A DNA stretch of 12,008 bases, from NCBI GenBank assembly GCA_016209155.1, contig JACQWU010000127.1, forward strand, positions 1 to 12,008, written 5' to 3'. Position 1 is the stretch's first letter. Each line of letters starts with the position of its first letter. The DNA is from Candidatus Desantisiibacteriota bacterium. GTDB lineage: Bacteria > JACRDZ01. This document shows, piece after piece, positions 1 to 12,008 of the stretch. The position numbers were made by a program, and so were the translations under genes. The notes under the pieces are model-generated. The model was not told the origin of the DNA and searched no databases. It saw nothing but the letters and a program-made list of their open reading frames with translations.

Positions 1-262
1 ATAACTTTTTAATGAGTTTAACTCTGCCTATGGAAAGAGTGGCAACTATTGTTAAATCAGATTCCTTATCACATAATGAAATATTTTCTAAAAAATCAAT
101 TTTCACATTATCATGCAAAACAGGAGCGATTCTTTCTTTTGCTTTGGTTACAGCGTCCTTATTCGGTTCAATTACCTGCACATTTATTGTTTTTTTAGAA
201 TTAACTATACCGTATAAATGAAAACTCCCTAATAATCCGCATCCAACTAAAGTTATTTTCAC
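1..262 (-). CDS. Rossmann-fold (Gfo/Idh/MocA-like) oxidoreductase, N-terminal part, cut by window start
   Basis: An open frame begins with GTG at 262 and runs off the window without a stop, giving 87 codons. The protein begins (M)KITLVGCGLLGSFHLYGI, a first beta strand plus a glycine-rich GxGxxG-type dinucleotide-binding loop, as in NAD(P)-dependent Gfo/Idh/MocA oxidoreductases. An acidic residue at the end of the second strand (VQVIEPNK) and a later DLTIVATL strand fit the same fold. A strong GAGGAG Shine-Dalgarno lies 8 bases before the GTG. The ATG further upstream (in CATATG) is in another frame. The gene follows the class III aminotransferase by 24 bases on the same strand and probably belongs to the same operon. 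The C-terminal substrate domain is outside the window, so substrate and exact family are open. Confidence 0.75.
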   Translation of the reverse strand, partial: MKITLVGCGLLGSFHLYGIVNSKKTINVQVIEPNKDAVTKAKERIAPVLHDNVKIDFLENISLCDKESDLTIVATLSIGRVKLIKKL

Positions 263-270
263 CGAATTCA

Positions 271-276
271 CTCCTC
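271..276 (-). promoter_or_regulatory. Shine-Dalgarno GAGGAG deciding a GTG start
   Basis: On the minus strand GAGGAG lies 8 bases before the GTG at 262. It supports that codon as the start of the truncated oxidoreductase, which has no in-frame ATG near its N-terminal glycine loop. Confidence 0.65.
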
Positions 277-286
277 ATATGTAAAT

Positions 287-1600
287 TTACGTTAATCTTT
301 TAAATCCGCCGTGCTTTACATCACCTTTTAAATATTTTTTAATATTATTACTATCTATTGCTTCTTTAATTATTGCAAAAACTTCATCAGAATCTTTAAT
401 GAATTTATCTATTATTTCATCAGTATATGAATAGGTTGTATATACTGCGGCTCCAAGTAAATATCCTTTTTTTAGCATTTCTTGAGTATACAATGTTTGA
501 ACTTCCAATGGATTTTTAACGAAAGAAATATGAGTTAGAGGAGGGATCCCATCGATTTTTATTTTAATATCATGCTTATCTGCAATTGTTTTCCATCCTT
601 TATTAATACGTTCGCCATAATGGATTAAGTGTTTTTGAACGTTATTTTTTTCCATTTTTTTTATTGTTGCAAGCGCAGCAGCAGGACCGATTCTTTCTGT
701 CCAAAAAGTTGAACTGACAAATGTTGCTTGAGCATTCTCCATTACTTCTTTTCGTCCGATTATGGCAGAAATAGGAAAACCATTTCCCAGCGCTTTACCA
801 AAAACAGCAACATCAGGTTCTACTCCAAGTTTTAAATGTATACCGCCAAAATTCACCCTGAACCCGGATGTAACTTCATCGAAAATTAACACCGCTCCTA
901 TTTTTGCGGCTATTTTTCTAACCCCTTCGAGAAACCCATCAACAGGAGGATTTCCTCTTTGCGGCTCCATAATAATAACACCGATTTCATTACCATATTG
1001 TTCAATAAGTTTTTCTAATTCATCAAGTTTATTATAGTTAAATGCCAGTGCTGTATTTTTCAATTCTCTTGGAACACCGAGAGGCTGCAGCCCGGGTAAT
1101 AATTGACCGTCAAGATGACTGGAGTCCCCAATATTTGCCGAGATATACCAATCATGCCATCCATGGTAACCGCAAAACGCAATTTTACTTTTTTTAGTAG
1201 TTGCCCTTGCAATCCTGATTGCAACTGCGCAAGCTTCTCCGCCTGTTCTTGCAAATCTAACCATTTCAGCCCATGGATGTATTTCTATAAGTTTTTCTGC
1301 TAATTCAACTTCTTCCGGTGAATTAAGCGAAGACATTGAACCATTTTTATCTTTTTTTATTACTGCTTCATTAATATCATCATCAGCATAACCAATAATG
1401 CAGGAACCTACACCCATTTGAGCAAAATCATAATAATGATTTCCATCAATATCCCAAACCTCACATCCTTTTGCTTTATTGTAATAAGCGGGCCATTGAT
1501 CGGGTAAAAACATTTCGGGACGCTTTGAAAGTAATTGCGTACCGCCCGGAATTATTTTTTTTGCTTTTTTATATAATTCTATACCTTTTGGACAATCCAT
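287..1600 (-). CDS. Class III PLP aminotransferase, glutamate-1-semialdehyde aminomutase-like, in sugar cluster
   Basis: A 437-residue fold-type I PLP enzyme of aminotransferase class III, about the length of HemL. Visible motifs are PGG at 18-20, RTGGEACAVAIRIAR (118-132, phosphate-binding region), GYHGWHD (144-150, PLP-ring contact), FDEVTSGFR (240-248, with D241 for the pyridine nitrogen) and FGKALGNGFP (267-276), where K269 is the predicted Schiff-base lysine. HemL has an asparagine/serine-rich loop (NSGTEA) where this protein has RTGGEA. No tetrapyrrole gene is nearby, so a role in heme synthesis is unlikely. It sits 26 bases after a Gfo/Idh/MocA-like oxidoreductase and 24 bases before a second one. 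AGGAG precedes the ATG by 6 bases. Inference: it transaminates a keto or aldehyde sugar, or a side-chain precursor, made by the neighbouring dehydrogenase. The substrate is unknown. Confidence 0.85.
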   Translation of the reverse strand: MDCPKGIELYKKAKKIIPGGTQLLSKRPEMFLPDQWPAYYNKAKGCEVWDIDGNHYYDFAQMGVGSCIIGYADDDINEAVIKKDKNGSMSSLNSPEEVELAEKLIEIHPWAEMVRFARTGGEACAVAIRIARATTKKSKIAFCGYHGWHDWYISANIGDSSHLDGQLLPGLQPLGVPRELKNTALAFNYNKLDELEKLIEQYGNEIGVIIMEPQRGNPPVDGFLEGVRKIAAKIGAVLIFDEVTSGFRVNFGGIHLKLGVEPDVAVFGKALGNGFPISAIIGRKEVMENAQATFVSSTFWTERIGPAAALATIKKMEKNNVQKHLIHYGERINKGWKTIADKHDIKIKIDGIPPLTHISFVKNPLEVQTLYTQEMLKKGYLLGAAVYTTYSYTDEIIDKFIKDSDEVFAIIKEAIDSNNIKKYLKGDVKHGGFKRLT

Positions 1601-1626
1601 ATATTCTCCTATCTCAAATATTTCAA

Positions 1627-2619
1627 TTAAATTTTATTCCCTTTATTTGTCTGTTCGGATTTTTCAAGTATGGTTAATATTTTTATATCTTCATCTAAAG
1701 TATTTGGAAAAGGTTTTTTATTTTTTACTGAATCAAGGAAAGCATTTATTTCCTGCACATACATTTCTTCGACAATATTTTTATTATACCCTGACTCTGC
1801 CTGACCTTCCGGCTCAAAATAATGAATCCATCTTTTGCTGTCAGCTTCATAAAGTTTTATTATTCGGTCTTCCCAATTCCATCGAATTTGAGCCTTTTCA
1901 AGATTTAAAGTTAAACTTCTTGTTGCAAAACGTGAAACAACGTCAACAATAAGCGTTCCTAAAAAATCTTTATATCTCAAATTAACACTATATACATCAT
2001 CAATATCAACACCTAAATTAAATGTTTTACCATAAAATGCTGAAACTTCCTGAGGTATTCCGGTTATATCTAAAATCCATGTTAATTCAAAAGGTATCAT
2101 TTCTCTTGTTGCGCTGGTTTCTTTTTTTGATACATAAAAATCTCTAATATCTTCCCATGGATGCCAATCAGGAAGATATTGTCCCATATGATAAACAAAA
2201 TTGCATATTTTACCGTATTTTTTACTTTGAACAATTTCTTTAATTGTTTTTATCGGAGGAAAAAATCTAAAAGTGCAGGAAGGCGCGATAAGAACATTTT
2301 TTTCTTTTGCCTCTTTTGAAACAGCTTCCAGTCCCTGTTTAAGAACACTGGCTTCAACAAATGCAGGTTTTTTATTTTTAACCGCGGTTTGTATATATTC
2401 AAGATGATGATTCGGCGGTGTTGAAATAATATAAACATCACGTTCTGATAATAATTCATCTGTTAACTTATCTGTTGTTTTAATACCGTATTTATCTTTT
2501 GCTTCGTTTCTTCTATCTTCTCTAAAATCAAAACCAATTATATCCTTAGCTCCTAATGCTAAACAATTTCTTACTCTGCGTTTACCCATTGACCCTAATC
2601 CAATTTGTAGTACTTTCAT
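1627..2619 (-). CDS. Gfo/Idh/MocA-like oxidoreductase with altered catalytic motifs
   Basis: A 330-residue protein with an N-terminal Rossmann domain: GLGSMGKRR (7-15) is the dinucleotide loop and STPPNHH (66-72) the strand-4 motif. The C-terminal half, from about residue 120, resembles the Gfo/Idh/MocA substrate domain, with WHPW at 152-155 and PFELTW at 176-181. The family's usual EKP motif reads EAS (89-91), so the catalytic lysine is missing. The usual D...H signature reads PFELTWILD, without the histidine. Family members normally oxidise or reduce a sugar hydroxyl with NAD(P). Either this branch uses other residues or it does something other than simple dehydrogenation. It starts 2 bases after the CMP-sugar synthetase stop, with GGAAAGGA inside that gene's end. 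The downstream class III aminotransferase suggests an oxidise-then-aminate pair, which is inference. Confidence 0.8.
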   Translation of the reverse strand: MKVLQIGLGSMGKRRVRNCLALGAKDIIGFDFREDRRNEAKDKYGIKTTDKLTDELLSERDVYIISTPPNHHLEYIQTAVKNKKPAFVEASVLKQGLEAVSKEAKEKNVLIAPSCTFRFFPPIKTIKEIVQSKKYGKICNFVYHMGQYLPDWHPWEDIRDFYVSKKETSATREMIPFELTWILDITGIPQEVSAFYGKTFNLGVDIDDVYSVNLRYKDFLGTLIVDVVSRFATRSLTLNLEKAQIRWNWEDRIIKLYEADSKRWIHYFEPEGQAESGYNKNIVEEMYVQEINAFLDSVKNKKPFPNTLDEDIKILTILEKSEQTNKGNKI

Positions 2620-2621
2620 TT

Positions 2622-3338
2622 TTATTTCCTTTCCTTAATTTTTTCTTTTAATATTGCTTCAATACAATAAAAATCCCATTTATCATCTATTTCGTAATTC
2701 TGCCATCTTTCAATTTCGTAATATGCAGTATTAGTATTATAGAAAGTTTTAGTTTCTTTATATACATCAATCTTACATATATATGCAACCCCGTATGGGA
2801 AATAGGCTTTATTCAATTGTTGTCTTTGTGTGATCTGAGTTTTAACCTCCAAATAAGGTTTTATGAAATCTCCTTCAATTTTTTTAATAATATCCGGATG
2901 TTCAAGATGAACTTCGCCTAAAGATACAAGGGAATCCGCGTTATTTGTATCAATGAGTTTTTTAATAGCAGAATCTAAATCGCTTTCTTTTCTTAACGGT
3001 GAAGTTGGTTCTAAAAGACATATATAATCATAATAATCATTTTGTTTTTCAAGAAAATCAATCGCATGCAAAATAACACCTGAAGACGGAGCTTTGTCGG
3101 TGGCTAAGTCATCAGGTCTTTTAAATGGAACCTCTGCACCATATTTTTTTGAAATTTCCATTATTTCAGAATCATCTGTACTTACAATAATTTTATCTAT
3201 ATATTTACTCTGCTTTGCATTTTCAATTGTCCAGGCTATCAAAGGTTTACCTGCAAGCTGTAAAATATTTTTTCTCGGCAAACCTTTTGACCCGCCTCTA
3301 GCCGGAATAATTGCTAATATTTTTTTATTTTTATACAT
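2622..3338 (-). CDS. legF: CMP-nonulosonic acid synthetase (CMP-legionaminate synthase type)
   Basis: A 238-residue cytidylyltransferase of the NeuA/LegF/PtmB family, a normal length for a single-domain member. It transfers CMP from CTP to the anomeric hydroxyl of a nonulosonic acid in the cytoplasm. Visible motifs are IPARGGSKGLPRKN (11-24, nucleotide and metal-binding loop), KPLIAWTIE (31-39), VSTDD, RPDDLATD, LEPTSPLR, a TQRQQ segment and YEIDDKWDF near the end, which carries the acidic metal ligands. The ATG directly abuts the TAG of the preceding gene, and its GGAGGT site lies inside that gene's last codons, so translation is probably coupled. Choosing legionaminate rather than Neu5Ac or pseudaminate rests on the linked legB, legC and neuC-type genes, because NeuA homologues cannot be told apart by motif alone. 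Confidence 0.9.
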   Translation of the reverse strand: MYKNKKILAIIPARGGSKGLPRKNILQLAGKPLIAWTIENAKQSKYIDKIIVSTDDSEIMEISKKYGAEVPFKRPDDLATDKAPSSGVILHAIDFLEKQNDYYDYICLLEPTSPLRKESDLDSAIKKLIDTNNADSLVSLGEVHLEHPDIIKKIEGDFIKPYLEVKTQITQRQQLNKAYFPYGVAYICKIDVYKETKTFYNTNTAYYEIERWQNYEIDDKWDFYCIEAILKEKIKERK

Positions 3339-4415
3339 CTATATACCTCCTAATATTTCAAGACTTTTCTTATACTCTTCCCATTGTCCAATATCAAGCC
3401 ATCCTGAATAAATTGGATAAACGGTTATTTTTTCTTTTTCTCCGACTAAATCAATTAAAGTATTCATATCTATATGTTTCCCTTTGGTTATATATGAAAT
3501 CACATGCGGTTCCATAACATAAATACCTGTATTAATAATTATATCGTGTACTGGTTTTTCTAATATTTTTTTAAGCTTTCCACCGGATAATTCAAGAACT
3601 CCAAATGGAATTTTAACTTCATTATGACTGCCGATAATTGTTATTGCTGACTTATGTTCCTTATGCCATTTAAGAACATCATGAAAATTTACATCCAATA
3701 AAGAATCACAATTAGCAACAAAAAATGTATCTTTTATTTTACCTTCCAATAATGAAATACTTCCGGCTGTTCCAAGAAAATCATTCTCCTCAATCCAATC
3801 AATAGAATATGGGAAATTACTTTCTTTTAAGAAAATTTTTATATATTCTTTTTTATAATTCAGTGTATAAATAAATTTATTAAATCCATTATTGTTAAAT
3901 CTTTCCATTATTAATTCTATTATTGTTTTATTCCCGATTGGAATTAAAGGTTTTGGTAATATTTTTGTAAAAGGATCCAATCTTGTGCCTTTTCCGCCTG
4001 CCATAATTACCACTTTGTTAGAAAGCATTTTAACTTTAGCCGGTTTCTGCTCTTTTTCCCCTTCCAGAACATCAGTCCAGAAAATAGCATCCACAATTTT
4101 CCCTTGATCATCCAATACAGGGATCTGTTCAATCTTATTATCAAGCATTAATTTTTCAGAATATTTTTTTATATCTGGCATAATAGATTTAGCTGAAATA
4201 AATTTTTTATTCATAATAAGCTCAATTTTACTATTAAATCCCAAACCCATAATAATTCCTCTTCTAATATCACCATCTGAAACTGTACCAAGAAGCTTAT
4301 TCTCTTTATCAATAACAAAAAGAATTTTTTCTGCGGTTTCATTAAGTTTTTGCATGGCAAGCTTAATGCTGATATTCGATGAAACTAAAAATGTTTTCAA
4401 TTTACTTTTATCCAT
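3339..4415 (-). CDS. ptmE: PtmE-like sugar-1-phosphate nucleotidyltransferase with N-terminal CBS pair
   Basis: A 358-residue two-part protein. Residues 1-120 hold two CBS motifs (LLGTVSDGDIRRGI at 41-54; IEQIPVLDDQGKIVDAI at 95-111). Residues 133-358 are a nucleotidyltransferase domain with AGGKGTRLDPFTKILPKPL (139-157), followed by NCDSLL and a late GWLDIGQWEEY segment. The Campylobacter protein of this architecture, PtmE, is a glucosamine-1-phosphate guanylyltransferase that starts the GDP-linked route to CMP-legionaminate; GDP specificity here is inferred. CBS pairs often bind adenosine nucleotides, so energy or feedback sensing is possible. It starts 4 bases after the neuC-type stop, and its TAG touches the ATG of the CMP-sugar synthetase. 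The order neuB, neuC, ptmE, neuA recalls the Campylobacter ptm region. Confidence 0.85.
   Translation of the reverse strand: MDKSKLKTFLVSSNISIKLAMQKLNETAEKILFVIDKENKLLGTVSDGDIRRGIIMGLGFNSKIELIMNKKFISAKSIMPDIKKYSEKLMLDNKIEQIPVLDDQGKIVDAIFWTDVLEGEKEQKPAKVKMLSNKVVIMAGGKGTRLDPFTKILPKPLIPIGNKTIIELIMERFNNNGFNKFIYTLNYKKEYIKIFLKESNFPYSIDWIEENDFLGTAGSISLLEGKIKDTFFVANCDSLLDVNFHDVLKWHKEHKSAITIIGSHNEVKIPFGVLELSGGKLKKILEKPVHDIIINTGIYVMEPHVISYITKGKHIDMNTLIDLVGEKEKITVYPIYSGWLDIGQWEEYKKSLEILGGI
3345..3350 (-). promoter_or_regulatory. Shine-Dalgarno GGAGGT inside the end of the upstream gene
   Basis: GGAGGT encodes part of the last residues (GGI) of the PtmE-like protein and lies 6 bases before the ATG at 3338. 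The stop TAG and this ATG are adjacent, which favours translational coupling of the two enzymes. Confidence 0.6.
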
Positions 4416-4419
4416 AAAA

Positions 4420-5598
4420 TTACCTGTTTCCTTCTATTTCATAAAAATGTTTTTTTAATTTATCGGTTAAAGATATCTTTTTAAGTACTTTTATTATTTT
4501 ATCACTTGTATTACCGTCTCCATATGGATTTTTTAATCCTTTTATGGAATTTTCAAATTCCGGCATAATAGCTTTTTTTATGGCATTTACGATATTATCC
4601 TTTTTACAATATGCAACATCTATAACATTTCCGGCTCTAATTCTTCCTTTCTGCCTGTCACCGATATTCACTACCGGTAAACAAAAAGACGGAGCTTCAA
4701 TTATACCTGATGATGAGTTTCCAAGCATTAAATCAGAATATTTTAATAATGAAAGATATCTTAACTGTCCTAAAGAACTGAAAGCTTTCCCATTGTCAGG
4801 ATTGTCTTTCACAAAATAATTTATCATTTTTATTATTATCCGTCCGCCGGTATCGGCATTAGGTAAAGTAAAAATCCAAAAGATATTTTTAAAACTTTTA
4901 ATTGCTTCCAGTAATTCCCTTATTTGAGACTCAGCAGTGTTATTTTCAAGAGTTACCGGATGATATGTGATAACTCCTATTTTTTTATTCCTTGGTATAT
5001 CTAATTCTTTTAGCAATTTCTCTTTATTTAAAAGAGGCAATTTTTTAATATTATCCATTCCCGGCGCGCCAAAACAAAATACATTTTCAGGTTGTTCTCC
5101 CATTTGTATTATTCTTTTTGCATAAATTTGAGTTGAAGGGAAATGAATATGACTCATCTTTGTTATTGCATGTCTGAAAAGTTCATCCATTGCTCCTTCT
5201 GTAATTTCCCCTCCATGAATATGCGCTATTGGGATCCTAAATGGCGCGGCAGCAGCAACTGCTGATAATATTTCAAATCTATCACCTAAAACAATTACAA
5301 TATCGGGCTTCAATCTTTCATATGTTTTTGAAAAACCAATCATCCCCAGTCCCATTGAAATCGCTATAGATGTTTCTGTATCCGAAGAAAGAAGTGTCTC
5401 AACTTTATCACTTATAGGAAATCCATCTTTTTCTATTTCTCTGATTGTCAATCCAAATTCAGGTGATAAATGCATATTGGTTACAATTAATTGCAATTCA
5501 AGAGCCGGATCATCATGTATTTTTTTTATGATCCAATAAAGCAAACCATATTCGGCTCTGGTTCCGGTTATTACTGCAATTTTTCGTTTATTTTTCAT
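4420..5598 (-). CDS. legG: NeuC/LegG-type hydrolysing NDP-sugar 2-epimerase
   Basis: A 392-residue enzyme of the hydrolysing UDP/GDP-GlcNAc 2-epimerase family. It would invert C2 and remove the nucleotide from the NDP-2,4-diacetamido sugar, giving the free 2,4-diacetamido-2,4,6-trideoxymannose used by the synthase. Visible motifs are TGTRAEYGLL (11-20), VLGDRFE (103-109), HIHGGE (126-131), GNSSSG (293-298) and GDRQKGR (313-319), all typical of NeuC/NnaA/LegG. The start is taken at the ATG at 5598, which has AGAGG 8 bases upstream and the usual short N-terminus before ITGTRAEYG. The frame also opens with a TTG at 5637 that overlaps the acyltransferase stop, but that codon lacks a good ribosome site and adds 13 atypical residues. 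It follows the acyltransferase by 28 bases. A NeuC-type epimerase argues for legionaminate over pseudaminate, whose hydrolase PseG is different. Confidence 0.9.
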   Translation of the reverse strand: MKNKRKIAVITGTRAEYGLLYWIIKKIHDDPALELQLIVTNMHLSPEFGLTIREIEKDGFPISDKVETLLSSDTETSIAISMGLGMIGFSKTYERLKPDIVIVLGDRFEILSAVAAAAPFRIPIAHIHGGEITEGAMDELFRHAITKMSHIHFPSTQIYAKRIIQMGEQPENVFCFGAPGMDNIKKLPLLNKEKLLKELDIPRNKKIGVITYHPVTLENNTAESQIRELLEAIKSFKNIFWIFTLPNADTGGRIIIKMINYFVKDNPDNGKAFSSLGQLRYLSLLKYSDLMLGNSSSGIIEAPSFCLPVVNIGDRQKGRIRAGNVIDVAYCKKDNIVNAIKKAIMPEFENSIKGLKNPYGDGNTSDKIIKVLKKISLTDKLKKHFYEIEGNR

Positions 5599-5606
5599 TT
5601 TATCTG

Positions 5607-5611
5607 CCTCT
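5607..5611 (-). promoter_or_regulatory. Shine-Dalgarno AGAGG fixing the neuC-type start
   Basis: AGAGG lies 8 bases before the ATG at 5598, in the 28-base gap after the acyltransferase stop. It makes the ATG a better start than the in-frame TTG at 5637. Confidence 0.55.
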
Positions 5612-5626
5612 AAATAACCATAGATC

Positions 5627-6724
5627 TTATATCGCAATTAATTTTAATGTAAGCTTTTTACCTATCCGGATAAAATTTTTTTCAATTTTATTGTAAACCA
5701 AAAAACTTAATATCAGTGTTAAAGGCAAAGATATTATAAATATATGTAATTTTGTAAAATCAAAAAACTTTGGTTTATTTAAATCAACAGTATAATATAC
5801 TATTGGATGTAATAAATAAATTGAATAAGATGCTTCTCCTAAAAATACACAAAATTTATTAAACAATTGATTCAAATTATAATTATCCAAATATACACAA
5901 GTACTGATAATAAAACATAAAGTCACATAAACAATTCTGTTCCAACCTGTTACAATATATATTTGGTCACCAAATACGTGATAAAAAATAAAAAATAAGA
6001 TTGAAATTACCAATAAAGACCGTATTAAAATAATTTTGTTATTATTTTGTTTTTCCTTAAAAATATAACCAATCAAAATCCCGCCTATAAAAAGAAAAAA
6101 CTGATTGAATGGATTTATATAATCCGCCCATTGATTTCCCAATGTGTCTTTAGTAGTGAAAACATAAAATGAAAAATACAAACCAATTAAAAAAACAAAT
6201 GAACAAAAAAAATAAAATAAATATTTATTCTCTTTTGCAATCAGGATAAATAAAGGAAATAATGAATAAAAAACCAATTCATTCCCAATAGACCAAACAC
6301 CAGTACCAATATACGCAGTTGGTTTAAAAAAAGCAAACAATCCGCTTAAATTAAGCATAATAGTTTTATAATCAGGTACTTTAAAACCCATTTTGTGATT
6401 AAGTACTACTTGTAAAATAGTTGCTATCCACAATAATGGAAGAATTCGAAATATCCGTCTGATACCAAATGAAAGTATAGATTTGTAATTGGTTGTCATG
6501 GATTTACTATAAACTAAATATAATGTTAAACCGCTTATTATATAAAACATTGAAACTGCATATATACCAAGCTTCCCAAGAATACTTGTAGCATTTATAG
6601 CACCGAATGTCCAGCCGGAATAATGATAAATCATTATTGAAACAGCCATAAAGCCTTTAAGATAATCCAACGAACTAACACGATTTTGTTCTATCTTAGC
6701 TTCAATTACATTAATTTTTTCCAA
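5627..6724 (-). CDS. Acyltransferase-3 family membrane O-acyltransferase
   Basis: A 365-residue, strongly hydrophobic protein with about ten predicted membrane segments, typical of acyltransferase-3 (OafA/NolL/WecH-like) enzymes, which O-acetylate glycans at the inner membrane. The N-terminal signature SLDYLKGFMAVSIMIYHYSG (18-37) holds the conserved histidine H34; lysine 23 replaces the more usual arginine. RRIFRILPLLW (89-99) and WSIGNELVFYSLFP (144-157, with E149) are further family motifs. There is no C-terminal SGNH domain at this length. The start is a TTG at 6724 with AAGGA 7 bases upstream; the next in-frame ATG would cut into the first motif. It sits between the synthase and epimerase genes (14 and 28 base gaps), suggesting it modifies the nonulosonate-containing glycan. 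The acyl donor and target position are unknown. Confidence 0.85.
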   Translation of the reverse strand: MEKINVIEAKIEQNRVSSLDYLKGFMAVSIMIYHYSGWTFGAINATSILGKLGIYAVSMFYIISGLTLYLVYSKSMTTNYKSILSFGIRRIFRILPLLWIATILQVVLNHKMGFKVPDYKTIMLNLSGLFAFFKPTAYIGTGVWSIGNELVFYSLFPLFILIAKENKYLFYFFCSFVFLIGLYFSFYVFTTKDTLGNQWADYINPFNQFFLFIGGILIGYIFKEKQNNNKIILIRSLLVISILFFIFYHVFGDQIYIVTGWNRIVYVTLCFIISTCVYLDNYNLNQLFNKFCVFLGEASYSIYLLHPIVYYTVDLNKPKFFDFTKLHIFIISLPLTLILSFLVYNKIEKNFIRIGKKLTLKLIAI

Positions 6725-6738: not shown

Positions 6739-7764
6739 TTATTCTAAAAAATCATCCCATTTAAATAATGAATCCTTTTTTATATCTGCGCGGGCTTTTC
6801 TGTTAATAATTACTTCAATATATTCCGGGGAAATTCCCTCTCCCGGTCTTTTTATTTGAATATCATCTAAGGAAACGACCGCACCCGCTTTTATATTTTT
6901 TGCTGCGACCAGGCTTCTTCTGGCGACTTTCTTTATATTTTCTTCATTTTTTACAGGTCTTTTTATTCCATTCCCCATTGCTTTTTCAATATTTCTAATT
7001 GCCTTAATCATTGCTTCTAATTCATAAGGTTCAAGTGAAGCTTTATGATCAGGGCCTTCCATTTTTCTATCAATAGTAAAATGTTTTTCAATAATCTTTG
7101 CGCCGATTGCGACTGCTGCTATTGGTACTTCTATTCCCATAGTATGATCGGAATATCCCACTGTTAGACCAAAGGCATTCTCCATTGTTTTCATTGCCAA
7201 TAAATTAGTATCTTCAACTTTTGCAGGATAGTTTGAGACACAATGCAAAAGAGATAATTGAGGTTTAATATTTATTTTTTCCCATTCCTCATTAATCCAG
7301 TTTATTGCTTTTTCTATTTCACCTAAATAAGACATTCCAGTTGAAAGAATAATTGATTTATTTTTTTTAGCGATATGTTTAATAAGCGGCATATTTGTTA
7401 TTTCACCGGATGGAATTTTAAAAATATTCATGCCAAAATCATTCAACATATCTGCGCTGTTTTCATCAAAAGGTGTAGACATAAAAGTAATATTTTTCCC
7501 CAGGCAATATGAAAGAAGTTCTTTATGTCCATCAATGGATAATTCCAGTTTTTTTAACATATCAAATTGAGATTCAGCCCGTTTAGTATTTTTAATCTGA
7601 TAATTCGCGCATGAAGCAGTAGTTGTTACTATTTTTTCAGCTTTAAAAGTCTGAAACTTAATTGCATCAGCACCGGCATCTGCTGCAATATCAACTAATT
7701 TCTTTGCAATATCAATATGTCCGTTATGATTAACTCCGGCTTCAGCAATTATAAATGTTTTCAT
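6739..7764 (-). CDS. legI: NeuB/LegI-type nonulosonic acid synthase
   Basis: A 341-residue PEP-dependent condensing enzyme of the NeuB family. It joins phosphoenolpyruvate to a six-carbon 2-acetamido sugar to form the nine-carbon acid. The TIM-barrel part shows AEAGVNHNG (7-15), KFQTFKAEKIV (36-46), STPFD (96-100), KIPSGEITN (116-124), STGM (141-144), HCVSNYP (174-180), GYSDHT (203-208) and EKHFTID...GPDH (226-240), which contain the metal and PEP-binding residues. Residues from about 282 to the end form the C-terminal SAF/antifreeze-like domain (RRSLVAAKNIKAG). The length is normal and the start ATG is part of an ATGA overlap with the acyltransferase stop upstream, indicating coupled translation. 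Legionaminate rather than sialate is inferred from the linked legB and legC genes. Confidence 0.93.
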   Translation of the reverse strand: MKTFIIAEAGVNHNGHIDIAKKLVDIAADAGADAIKFQTFKAEKIVTTTASCANYQIKNTKRAESQFDMLKKLELSIDGHKELLSYCLGKNITFMSTPFDENSADMLNDFGMNIFKIPSGEITNMPLIKHIAKKNKSIILSTGMSYLGEIEKAINWINEEWEKINIKPQLSLLHCVSNYPAKVEDTNLLAMKTMENAFGLTVGYSDHTMGIEVPIAAVAIGAKIIEKHFTIDRKMEGPDHKASLEPYELEAMIKAIRNIEKAMGNGIKRPVKNEENIKKVARRSLVAAKNIKAGAVVSLDDIQIKRPGEGISPEYIEVIINRKARADIKKDSLFKWDDFLE

Positions 7765-8399
7765 TTTGCAGGTACTCCTATTACTGTTGTATTATCCGGG
7801 ACATCTTTAATTACAACTGCTCCGGCAGCAACTATGGAATTTTTTCCGATTTTCTTTAATTGTATAATTGTTGTCCCCGCACCGATAAATGCACCATCAT
7901 CTATAGTACATCCTCCGGAAATAATTGATCCGGGGCATATATGAACATGATTACCTATTTTACAATCATGTTCTATTATTGCACCTGTATTAATAATTGA
8001 ATTTTCACCTATAAAATTCCCGGGACGAATTACGGCGCCTGCCATTATTTGCACCCCTTCGGAAATTTGAACTTCTTCAGAGACAATCGTTTGAGGATGG
8101 ATTAAAAGCGGAAAATTAAAACCGATTTTTTTTAACTTATCATATAATTCTTTTCTTTTGGTATTATCTCTGACACTCCCGATTCCTAAACATATTTTTT
8201 TAATATTATTTTTATATAATTCGGGCAGTAAACCATCATTCCCGATAACAGAAATTCCTGATACCTGCATCCCGGATTTAAGTTGAGGGTCTATTATCCC
8301 TGTTATTTCATATAATTTAGACAGTTTAATCAAATCTATTAAAACTTTGGCATGTCCGCCGCCGCCTAAAATTATAATTTTTTCTTTATTTTTTTTCAT
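7761..8399 (-). CDS. legH: NeuD/LegH/PglD-type sugar N-acyltransferase
   Basis: A 212-residue protein counted from the ATG at 8399. The N-terminal alpha/beta nucleotide-sugar-binding part has IIILGGGGHAKVLIDL (8-23). From about residue 105 it has a left-handed beta-helix of hexapeptide repeats, ending with the characteristic GVPAK. H144 in IIEHDC is the expected catalytic base of PglD-like enzymes, which transfer acetyl from acetyl-CoA to the 4-amino group of the NDP-4-amino-6-deoxy sugar made by LegC. It overlaps the legC end by 14 bases and the synthase start by 4 (ATGA). A TTG at 8408 could add three residues (MKN); neither start has a clear Shine-Dalgarno, so translation probably depends on ribosomes finishing legC. 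It could instead O-acetylate sialate as classical NeuD does, but the context favours N-acylation. Confidence 0.88.
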   Translation of the reverse strand: MKKNKEKIIILGGGGHAKVLIDLIKLSKLYEITGIIDPQLKSGMQVSGISVIGNDGLLPELYKNNIKKICLGIGSVRDNTKRKELYDKLKKIGFNFPLLIHPQTIVSEEVQISEGVQIMAGAVIRPGNFIGENSIINTGAIIEHDCKIGNHVHICPGSIISGGCTIDDGAFIGAGTTIIQLKKIGKNSIVAAGAVVIKDVPDNTTVIGVPAK

Positions 8400-9558
8400 G
8401 TTTTTCAAAATAATTTTTTATCTGTTTCACAATATATTTTATATTTTCCTGTTTAATACCAACACTGCATGGGATATTAAAACAGCGATCATAAACCTCA
8501 ATCGCTTTATCTATTTTATAAGTTTGAAAATTTTTATACATAGGTAATGTATGAATCAATTTCCAGATCGGTCTTACTTGTATATCTTTAGATAAAAGGT
8601 ATTGCATAAGTTGATTTTTATTTATACTTTTTGTTTTAATTGTATAAAACCAGAAATTACTTTTTGCCCAGGATTTTTCCCATAAAAATTCTATTTCATT
8701 AATATTTGATAATAATTTTTTATATATAGCCGCATTCTTTCTTTTTATCTCTATGAACTCATTAAGCTTTTCCATTTGCGCAACTCCAATGGCAGCTTGT
8801 ATATTCGTAAGACGATAATTATAACCAATTTCATCATGGTCATATTCAAAAGGATCTTTTTTGGCTTGAGTAGTGAGATGTCTTATTTTTTTAGCAAAAC
8901 TTTCATCATCAGTAACCACCATACCGCCGCCGCCTGTTGTGATAAGCTTATTACCATTGAAGGAAAAACAACCTGCTTTGCTTAACGAGCCTGTTTTTTT
9001 TCCTTTATATTCAGAACCAAGACTTTCAGTTGCATCCTCAATAATATCAATGTTATATTCTTTACATATTTCTAAGAGCGGATCCATATCAACCGGATGA
9101 CCAAAAATATGTACAGGAATGATCGCTTTTATTCTTCTTTTTGTTTTTTTATTATAAGTAAATCCGTCTTTCCCAAAAGTACTCTCATTTCTTAAAAAAT
9201 CAATCACTTTCTGAGTATCTATACATAAAGTTTCTAAATCACAGTCGATAAATACTGGATAAGCATTGCAATATCTTACTGCATTAACAGGTGCGATAAA
9301 AGTAAGAGGAGGAACAATAACTTCATCCTCAGCTTTAACCCCGCAGGCTATGAGACTCACATGAAGTGCTGATGTACCATTTACAACAGCGACAGCATAT
9401 TTTGCCCCGACATGTTCAGCAAGCATACTCTCAAAAAGATTTACATAATTACCAACAGAAGAAACCCAGCCGGTATCAAGACATTCTTTTACATATTTCC
9501 ATTCATTTCCCGAAATTTCCGGTTCTGACAAGGGAATTACTTTTTTTATATTAGACAT
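8386..9558 (-). CDS. legC: LegC-type DegT/DnrJ/EryC1 sugar aminotransferase
   Basis: A 390-residue PLP enzyme of the DegT/DnrJ/EryC1/StrS family. It would aminate C4 of the NDP-4-keto-6-deoxy-GlcNAc made by LegB, with glutamate as amino donor. Visible motifs are NGTSALHVSL (60-69, phosphate site), PPLTFIAPVNAV (83-94), IPVHIFGHPVD (147-157), EDATESLGSEYKG (174-186, with D175 facing the PLP nitrogen) and CFSFNGNKLITTGGGG (197-212), where K204 is the predicted PLP lysine. The NGNK version of the lysine motif and the insertion at about 122-143 resemble Campylobacter LegC as I remember it. The start ATG overlaps the legB stop by 8 bases. The next gene overlaps its end, placing dehydratase, aminotransferase and acyltransferase in pathway order. 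Confidence 0.92.
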   Translation of the reverse strand: MSNIKKVIPLSEPEISGNEWKYVKECLDTGWVSSVGNYVNLFESMLAEHVGAKYAVAVVNGTSALHVSLIACGVKAEDEVIVPPLTFIAPVNAVRYCNAYPVFIDCDLETLCIDTQKVIDFLRNESTFGKDGFTYNKKTKRRIKAIIPVHIFGHPVDMDPLLEICKEYNIDIIEDATESLGSEYKGKKTGSLSKAGCFSFNGNKLITTGGGGMVVTDDESFAKKIRHLTTQAKKDPFEYDHDEIGYNYRLTNIQAAIGVAQMEKLNEFIEIKRKNAAIYKKLLSNINEIEFLWEKSWAKSNFWFYTIKTKSINKNQLMQYLLSKDIQVRPIWKLIHTLPMYKNFQTYKIDKAIEVYDRCFNIPCSVGIKQENIKYIVKQIKNYFEKHEKK

Positions 9559-10549
9559 TATATATATCCCATTTATATTTATTTAGATTTTCTTTATTTT
9601 TAAACCATTCTATTGTTTCTTTTAATCCATCAATAAAAGTATATTTTTGTTCCCAGTTTGTTATTTTTGTTATTTTTTCATTACTTCCAAATAGTCTTTC
9701 CACTTCACTCTTTTCAGGTCTTAGCCTGATATCTTCTGTTATTATTTTTGCTTCAGGATTTATAATATTTATTATTTTTTGCGCTAATTCTCCAATCGTT
9801 ATTTCACTTTGAGTAGCTATATTTATCTCTTCGCCTATAGTTTTATCAGACTTTGCTATTTCAATAAATCCTTTTACTGTATCTTTAACATATACCATAT
9901 CTCGTGTCGGATTTAATGAACCGAGTTTTATTTCTTTTTCACCTGATAAAAGCTGAGTTATTATTGTAGGAATTACTGCTCGCGCGGATTGACGGGGACC
10001 AAATGTATTAAATGGTCTGACAATTGCCACCGGTAAATTAAAACTTCTAAAAAAAGACTCTGCAATAAAATCCGCGCCTATTTTAGTTGCAGAATATGGA
10101 GACTGCCCTTGACGCGGATGCTTTTCATCTATAGGAACATATAAAGCAGTTCCATAAACTTCAGATGTTGATGTCACTAAAATTTTTTCAACATTTAAAT
10201 CTCTGGATGCCTGAAGTATATTTAATGTCCCTTTTATGTTTGTATCAATATAATTATCGGGCGAATGATAGCTATAAGGAATGCCTATTAATGCGGCTAA
10301 ATGAAAAACGATATTAATATCTTTTAGCGCTGTTCTTACACCATTTGGATCTCTTATATCACCGCTAAAAATTTCCAGTTTTTTTAATTTTGACTTTGGA
10401 AATGTGTCCAGCCATCCCCAATTATTAAACGAATTGTAATATACAAATGCTTTTACCTGATAATCTTCTTCAATAAGTTTTTCTACTAAATGACTGCCTA
10501 TAAAACCATCTGCTCCTGTAACTAAAATTTTTTTATTTTTTAAATCCAC
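9551..10549 (-). CDS. legB: LegB-type NAD-dependent nucleotide-sugar 4,6-dehydratase
   Basis: A 332-residue extended short-chain dehydrogenase/reductase. TGADGFIGSHLVEKL (11-25) is the NAD loop, LAALIGIPYSY (84-94) and TSTSEVYGT (126-134) hold active-site residues, and PYSATK (151-156) carries the Y152-K156 catalytic pair. TRDMVYVKDTVKGF follows in the C-terminal half. This set matches retaining NDP-GlcNAc 4,6-dehydratases of the LegB/PglF-analogue class, which make the 4-keto-6-deoxy intermediate. The start is GTG at 10549 with AGAGGTG 7 bases upstream; no in-frame ATG precedes the glycine loop. It is the first gene after the long intergenic region and so the likely first gene of the operon. 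A GDP-linked rather than UDP-linked substrate is suggested only by the PtmE-like gene downstream. Confidence 0.9.
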   Translation of the reverse strand: MDLKNKKILVTGADGFIGSHLVEKLIEEDYQVKAFVYYNSFNNWGWLDTFPKSKLKKLEIFSGDIRDPNGVRTALKDINIVFHLAALIGIPYSYHSPDNYIDTNIKGTLNILQASRDLNVEKILVTSTSEVYGTALYVPIDEKHPRQGQSPYSATKIGADFIAESFFRSFNLPVAIVRPFNTFGPRQSARAVIPTIITQLLSGEKEIKLGSLNPTRDMVYVKDTVKGFIEIAKSDKTIGEEINIATQSEITIGELAQKIINIINPEAKIITEDIRLRPEKSEVERLFGSNEKITKITNWEQKYTFIDGLKETIEWFKNKENLNKYKWDIYNV

Positions 10550-10958: not shown

Positions 10959-12008
10959 TTACTCCTTTAAATAATGTTTTTGACCAATAAATAAAAGTCC
11001 CATTAAAAACCAGAACAAGGTTATTGATACATCATTTTTGATACTATAATCAACAATACCTGAAACCAAAAATGATATTAATCCCGCAAAACACCCTATG
11101 TTTATATTTTTTAAATAAGGATCATCTAAATTATTTTTTATAGAACCATACCCTTTATTTAGCAAATTATAAATTATCCATAAAAATGCTGCCAATCCTA
11201 ATATCCCGGCATTTACTCCCTGCTGAATATAATTATTATGCGAATGAGGATGAACTTCAAACTTACCTTTTTTATCCGCGGCAAGCTCATAATTTTCCAT
11301 ACCTACGCCTAACAAAGGATTATCTTTAATGATTTTTATCCCTTTTTCCCATATCTCAATTCTACTATAGTCTGAAGTTGATTTAAAATTTTGTATTTTT
11401 TTCGCTCTTTCTTTAAAACTGGAACTTAAATAAATAGATAAACTTATAAATAATAAAACGGGGATAATAATTCTTTTATCTTTTAAAAAACAAATAACTA
11501 AAACACCTGATATTAATCCTAACCATGCTCCTCTTGTATATGTTAATATTAATGCTATAGACATGATTAGAATTGCGCTAACTAAAAATATTTTTTCGTA
11601 TAAATTATTCATTTTCAATGAAAAAACAGAGATACTAAGTAAAATCATGTACATTAAGAACCATGCAAAATCAAATATGCTTCCTAAATTTCCTCTAATT
11701 CTTATGGAATTTACATTTATAAAACCTTTATTAATTTTTATATATTGATAAATCCCGATTAAAGCAAAAACAATTGAGCATGCAATAAGTAATGTTACTA
11801 AAAATTTAATTTCCTTTTTTTTTACTAAATTCACAGTTATAAAAAAAACAATTACAAGAAAAAGTCCCCAAAACTCATGTATTCCTCTTTGAGGATTAAG
11901 ACCAAATATAATTGCGATTAAATTTATAAAAATATATGCAACGACAGGTATAAAAATGGAGGTTTCCATAAATTTATATTCTTTGGTAAAAATCATTTTC
12001 CCCATCCA
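10959..12008 (-). CDS. O-antigen ligase/polymerase (Wzy_C) family membrane protein, 5' end cut by window
   Basis: At least 348 residues, open to the window edge. The ATG at 12005 is preceded in frame by TGG and no stop, and family members are usually about 400 residues or more, so the true start is probably outside. It has many hydrophobic segments and the Wzy_C/WaaL hallmarks: TYTRGAWLGL (155-164, with R158), the large periplasmic loop with SRIEIWEKG (214-222) and NPLLGVGMENYE (229-240), and HPHSHNNYIQQGVNAGILGL (252-271, with H256). Such proteins polymerise repeat units or join a glycan to lipid A, core or protein on the periplasmic side. Sequence alone does not separate polymerase, lipopolysaccharide ligase and protein O-oligosaccharyltransferase. 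It is co-oriented with the leg genes but separated from them by 409 bases. Confidence 0.85.
   Translation of the reverse strand, partial: WMGKMIFTKEYKFMETSIFIPVVAYIFINLIAIIFGLNPQRGIHEFWGLFLVIVFFITVNLVKKKEIKFLVTLLIACSIVFALIGIYQYIKINKGFINVNSIRIRGNLGSIFDFAWFLMYMILLSISVFSLKMNNLYEKIFLVSAILIMSIALILTYTRGAWLGLISGVLVICFLKDKRIIIPVLLFISLSIYLSSSFKERAKKIQNFKSTSDYSRIEIWEKGIKIIKDNPLLGVGMENYELAADKKGKFEVHPHSHNNYIQQGVNAGILGLAAFLWIIYNLLNKGYGSIKNNLDDPYLKNINIGCFAGLISFLVSGIVDYSIKNDVSITLFWFLMGLLFIGQKHYLKE

Follow-up and report, generated by a model that had tools for sequence, protein, structure and literature searches.

What does a further aminotransferase do in a legionaminate operon that already holds genes for the 5- and 7-nitrogens of the sugar? 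The question is raised by a 12,008-nucleotide stretch of contig JACQWU010000127.1 (Candidatus Desantisiibacteriota bacterium, assembly GCA_016209155.1), here called the window, in which legF is followed on the minus strand by genes for a Gfo/Idh/MocA oxidoreductase (1627-2619, 330 residues), a class III pyridoxal phosphate (PLP) aminotransferase (287-1600, 437 residues) and the N-terminal part of a Rossmann-type protein (1-262). We consider the odds somewhat better than even (about 0.57) that what follows legF is a module for late nonulosonate tailoring, which would oxidise and then transaminate the sugar, most likely at C8. We infer each element of this reading, namely the nonulosonate as substrate, C8 as the position and the order of the steps. 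The initial annotation had described three genes after legF with gaps of 2, 26 and 24 bases, and these distances were reproduced with a GTG start at 262 for the last gene; the legionaminate operon LegB-C-H-I-G-PtmE-LegF that it saw besides them is also present. Its view of the three genes as appended was right only in part, as legionaminate operons commonly carry a PtmF-type oxidoreductase next to LegF.

The aminotransferase matches Pfam Aminotran_3 at 1.5e-49 and has the class III fold, with the PLP lysine (K269) and the cofactor-binding aspartate (D241) conserved. Because the named families closest to it in sequence resemble HemL, the possibility of a displaced HemL producing 5-aminolevulinate had to be considered, and almost no weight can be given to it. 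The enzyme is below the cut-off for HemL and for every NCBIfam model shown; against the HemL profile TIGR00713 it scores 245 bits, compared with a curated cut-off of 527 bits, while a separate HemL encoded by the same genome reaches 627 bits. In several genomes that carry relatives of the aminotransferase, none of the proteins reaches the HemL cut-off. A branch with a support of 100 split HemL off in a tree of 96 sequences, and the window enzyme fell outside HemL, so the clustering inside true HemL that the initial annotation had named as a risk was not observed. Besides, the C-terminal glutamate of HemL (E406, Synechococcus numbering) occurred in each of the 6 HemL sequences but is deleted in all 94 aligned relatives, in which the NSPVRA arginine motif of HemL is replaced by LLSKR, the mark of the subfamily to which the window enzyme belongs, and the GSG gating loop is replaced as well. 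The HemL identity was rejected on the combined grounds of score, position in the tree, deleted glutamate and the HemL found elsewhere in the genome. A fold search with the AlphaFold2 model of the aminotransferase (mean predicted confidence, pLDDT, 86.3) returned FumI as the top match (Z 42.3, root-mean-square deviation 2.1, 401 residues aligned), with a HemL as a close second (Z 41.0).

A scan of genome contigs recovered 80 loci with relatives of the aminotransferase, 51-68% identical and distributed over many phyla; a copy on an archaeal plasmid is 51% identical. Clustering of open reading frames (ORFs) gave PseB-PseC-[AKR or Gfo]-SpsF-type CTP transferase-aminotransferase-PseG-NeuB as the common order, AKR being an aldo-keto reductase. 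Of the loci, 50 extended 3 kb or more to each side of the aminotransferase, and 39 of these had a nonulosonate gene within 6 kb. Flavobacteriaceae, which were sampled independently of context, had the aminotransferase in 11 of 397 genomes, and all 11 copies were located within nonulosonate clusters, 10 of them with AKR and SpsF. The initial annotation had asked whether such genes occur mostly away from nonulosonate genes, and these counts answer that they occur mostly with them. In 35 loci, synthase, PseC/LegC-type and PseB/LegB-type genes were present besides the aminotransferase. Of the usual two nitrogens, that at C5 is brought in by the N-acetylglucosamine (GlcNAc) precursor and that at C7 by LegC or PseC; since both are already supplied, a further aminotransferase implies a third nitrogen. 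Fusion of the aminotransferase to an SpsF-type cytidine monophosphate (CMP)-sugar synthetase, seen in 16 loci, points to a late step.

These fusions also bear on the proposal that the product of the module is a different part of the same glycan, either an amino sugar of its own or an amino-acyl substituent. Genes adjacent in one operon often serve different sugars of a single polysaccharide, and some relatives of the aminotransferase lie outside nonulosonate clusters. However, relatives are fused to CMP-sugar synthetases, and the window has neither a ligase nor a second nucleotide-sugar activation gene beside the aminotransferase, which makes this proposal improbable. Thus, of the options offered by the initial annotation, the additional amino group on a nonulosonate has good support from the nonulosonate neighbourhoods, the SpsF-type fusion, the interchangeable dehydrogenases described below and pathways that, apart from this enzyme, already account for the 5- and 7-amino groups; a second amino sugar or an amino-acyl side chain fits worse.

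The dehydrogenases found beside the aminotransferase belong to the AKR, Gfo/Idh/MocA and PtmA-type short-chain dehydrogenase/reductase (SDR) families, which are mutually unrelated. AKR was the only partner in 37 loci, Gfo/Idh/MocA in 12 and the SDR in 5; 6 loci had the SDR plus AKR or Gfo, and 21, many of them on short contigs, had no partner. No locus had AKR and Gfo together within 4.5 kb of the aminotransferase and only one had both within 6 kb, an avoidance with a Fisher p of 3e-5 that serves only as a guide because related sequences make the loci non-independent. When partner labels were placed on the aminotransferase tree, at least 11 changes were needed, at least 4 of which are forced by supported branches. 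AKR and Gfo partners have been swapped repeatedly. Oxidise-then-aminate chemistry would predict just this, namely unrelated dehydrogenases that share one slot beside one aminotransferase. All three partner types were also observed in viral contigs from IMG/VR: L121 and L123 have PseB-AKR-SpsF-class III aminotransferase, L125 has AKR-SpsF-aminotransferase-GNAT-NeuB-PseB adjoining a terminase-like gene, and the SDR and Gfo versions occur in L088 and L089, respectively. These are apparently phage-borne nonulosonate-modifying modules.

In the proposed route, an NAD(P)-dependent dehydrogenase would act on (CMP-)legionaminic acid and turn one of its hydroxyls, most likely that at C8, into a ketone, which would give an 8-keto-9-methyl side chain, i.e., a methyl ketone. 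The class III aminotransferase would then transaminate this methyl ketone to form the third amino group, and the product would be a legionaminate-type CMP-5,7,8-triamino-3,5,7,8,9-pentadeoxynonulosonate, free or later acylated. Methyl ketones are a substrate type accepted by class III enzymes, and the substrate of FumI has a CH3-CH(NH2) centre; judged from the structural model, the top match to FumI would be in line with a methyl-ketone substrate, HemL being close behind. C8 is preferred because an 8-keto group is a methyl ketone, because an oxidoreductase pair is known to act there, and because an 8-amino nonulosonate exists in nature. With regard to the pair, EpaA (a CTP-transferase/AKR fusion) and the SDR EpaB make 8-epipseudaminic acid (PMC12053666). 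The natural sugar, a pseudaminic-type 8-amino-3,5,7,8,9-pentadeoxynonulosonate, has been reported in Flexibacter (Tenacibaculum) maritimum (PMC3210612). The initial annotation, which knew of no assigned product for this combination, is therefore corrected, as a likely product class is chemically known; no assignment of genes to an 8-amino nonulosonate was found in the literature searched (open-licence papers only).

The same chemistry could act at another position, for example by oxidation of the C4 hydroxyl to give a 4-amino sugar. Any free hydroxyl is compatible with all of the context evidence, and the C4 configuration varies naturally, as in 4-epilegionaminic acid (PMC3210612). On the other hand, EpaA/EpaB, the oxidoreductase pair experimentally tied to a nonulosonate, works at C8, and the 8-amino sugar exists naturally while a 4-amino nonulosonate was not found in the literature searched; we regard another position as rather unlikely. 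With C8 as the preferred position, a more specific version of our reading, to which we give slightly less than even odds, is that the window makes CMP-8-amino-8-deoxylegionaminic acid and that the aminotransferase represents a pan-phylum 8-amination family, found in bacteria, archaea and phage contigs, that would receive its ketone from any of the three dehydrogenases. This sugar would be a triamino nonulosonate for which the literature searched gave no description.

The dehydrogenase next to the aminotransferase in the window, the Gfo/Idh/MocA protein, has Pfam matches to GFO_IDH_MocA_C3 (3.5e-9) and GFO_IDH_MocA (7.7e-7). Its AlphaFold2 model (pLDDT 90.7) has the two-domain fold of the family with a dinucleotide-binding Rossmann domain; the nearest folds are sugar dehydrogenases in the PDB, and Z reaches 32.6 to oxidoreductases of the same fold. 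In its subtype, EAS replaces EKP, and REMxPFE (REMIPFE in the window) occupies the position of the DxxH region usual in the family. Seven proteins of this subtype were found (the window, L010, L011, L063, L163, L179 and L180), and a class III aminotransferase directly follows in 7 of 7, in unrelated phyla, which argues that the arrangement is not due to chance. A search for further EAS-type proteins gave one new case among 297 + 239 genomes. In L179 and L180, where LegF adjoins the same module, it is 49-58% identical to the LegF of the window. Two contigs of one Nitrospirae genome overlap at their ends, L180 and L012, and together have the order LegG-PtmE-(one further gene)-LegF-Gfo(EAS)-aminotransferase, which is that of the window. 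Proteins of 462-463 residues are located between PtmE and LegF in L007 (6363-7751) and L180 (1910-3295); they are 64% identical, and both operons are legionaminate operons with this aminotransferase.

Campylobacterales offer another comparison. Their ordinary operon, PtmE-Gfo(EKP)-LegF-SDR, corresponds to PtmE-PtmF-LegF-PtmA; like the window it has a Gfo/Idh/MocA protein beside LegF, with a PtmA-type SDR after LegF, but it has no aminotransferase and its PtmF-like proteins retain EKP. In the window, the Gfo protein is of the EAS type and comes after LegF, not between PtmE and LegF as PtmF does. One Campylobacterales genome (L163) has LegF-Gfo(EAS)-aminotransferase-nitrilase-like gene-PtmA, and a gammaproteobacterium has LegF-Gfo(EAS)-aminotransferase-PtmA. 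The aminotransferase of L163 (8252-9541) belongs to another subfamily (NF004856, 712 bits; 31% identical to that of the window), and the gammaproteobacterial enzyme shares its N-terminal motif. NF004856 is named glutamate-1-semialdehyde 2,1-aminomutase, and this name is probably wrong for the family. The nitrilase/omega-amidase-like gene between aminotransferase and PtmA in this legionaminate operon (L163:9544-10323) could fit a glutamine-dependent transaminase. That Gfo(EAS)-aminotransferase takes the place of PtmF in L163, where PtmE-PtmF-LegF-PtmA is usual, suggests another explanation, in which the module replaces PtmF in legionaminate operons and helps to make glucosamine for the GDP-GlcNAc branch; the literature also places PtmA in the GDP-GlcNAc segment (PMC4481668). 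However, the aminotransferase is equally tied to Pse clusters, whose pathway begins with UDP-GlcNAc and has no use for such a supply; in these clusters its fusion partner is the CMP synthetase of the last step. We therefore find a role in precursor supply unlikely.

The third gene starts most likely at the GTG at 262, with GAGGAG seven bases upstream, and runs to base 1, giving 87 codons; the contig is exactly as long as the window, 12,008 bp, and its end cuts the gene off there. No Pfam family was above cut-off for these 87 residues, the best being 3HCDH_N (E 0.006) and GFO (E 0.075). The initial annotation had placed two Rossmann oxidoreductases around the aminotransferase; this holds for the Gfo/Idh/MocA protein, and the third gene is likely, but only likely, a second one because its matches are all sub-threshold. 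The expectation of a conserved trio beside NeuA/LegF homologues failed: only the Gfo-aminotransferase pair is conserved, the third gene is so far unique to the window, and the trio was rejected as a conserved unit.

Several observations weigh against late tailoring at C8. The window Gfo protein lacks the catalytic EKP lysine of its family and the downstream histidine, which makes its role as the oxidase insecure; the oxidising partner in the window is uncertain, and the oxidation may fall to the third gene, of which only the start is present, or to a PtmA-type SDR encoded past the end of the contig. The third gene, besides being truncated, had no relatives in plasmids or in the loci examined around other aminotransferase copies. 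A dedicated extra N-acyltransferase was not seen in the window. Neighbour labels were derived from ORF similarity clusters and some are wrong; for example, the 463-residue gene of L007 was tagged PseB/LegB and resembles a different protein. Relatives also occur in non-nonulosonate settings, e.g., L034, L065 and L040. No assay of any enzyme of the aminotransferase family was found in the literature, and the genes were not confirmed in any organism known to make an 8-amino sugar. As to the relatives in other settings, those of L034 and L065 carry a fused Amidohydro_2 domain, and that of L040 adjoins a Gfo protein and an aldolase-like gene.

Oxidation followed by amination is known from several systems. 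GnnA/GnnB, GenD2/GenS2 and KanD2/KanS2 are pairs of a Gfo/Idh/MocA protein and an aminotransferase that follow this logic, and GnnA, GenD2 and KanD2 were among the nearest solved folds of the window Gfo model; in contrast to the window enzyme, GnnB, GenS2 and KanS2 are DegT-type aminotransferases and the substrates are hexose rings. KdnB/KdnA of Shewanella, which make 8-amino-Kdo, are a dehydrogenase and an aminotransferase acting on an ulosonic acid, but they use the terminal primary alcohol of an octulosonate and belong to unrelated enzyme families. EpaA/EpaB, encoded by Acinetobacter prophages (PMC12053666), resemble the module in a CTP-transferase-linked AKR and in C8 oxidoreduction on a nonulosonate; there the SDR would re-reduce the ketone, whereas in the window module the aminotransferase would take it. 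A search of phage records with the cluster AKR for a direct comparison with EpaA gave no match. It has also been reported that group I flagellin glycosylation islands of Aeromonas contain class III aminotransferases without assigned function between pseF and pseG (PMC7874193). The likeness is drawn from the published description, and these islands differ in having pseudaminate and a reductase partner, as opposed to legionaminate and Gfo/Idh/MocA in the window. Similarly, in Legionella a class III aminotransferase without assigned function is located beside a CMP-sugar synthetase and PseG (PMC3694923).

The remaining genes of the operon are on the minus strand too, in the order LegB, LegC, LegH, LegI, acyltransferase, LegG, PtmE, LegF, Gfo/Idh/MocA, aminotransferase and third gene. 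The 4,6-dehydratase LegB (9551-10549; TIGR04180), the aminotransferase LegC (8386-9558; TIGR04181), which is the source of the C7 nitrogen, the N-acetyltransferase LegH (7761-8408; TIGR03570), the nonulosonate synthase LegI (6739-7764; TIGR03569) and the hydrolysing 2-epimerase LegG (4420-5637; TIGR03568) were all above cut-off. PtmE/LegX (3339-4415), with CBS and nucleotidyltransferase profile matches, belongs to the GDP-sugar branch, and the LegF/PtmB-type CMP-nonulosonate synthetase (2622-3338) matches CTP_transf_3 at 8.2e-27. The membrane acyltransferase between LegG and LegI (Acyl_transf_3, 5627-6724) is a candidate that could O-acylate the glycan. Upstream of LegB is a Wzy_C/O-antigen ligase-like protein (10959-12005), which makes a surface polysaccharide the probable destination of the operon's product.

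Nonulosonic acids on flagella, capsules and lipopolysaccharides shape host and phage recognition, and the aminotransferase family provides a testable gene candidate for the chemically known 8-amino nonulosonate. If our reading is true, widespread annotations as glutamate-1-semialdehyde aminomutase would be corrected, a nonulosonate with an extra amine would become predictable from genomes, and the bacterial route to an 8-amino sugar known from chemistry would be explained.
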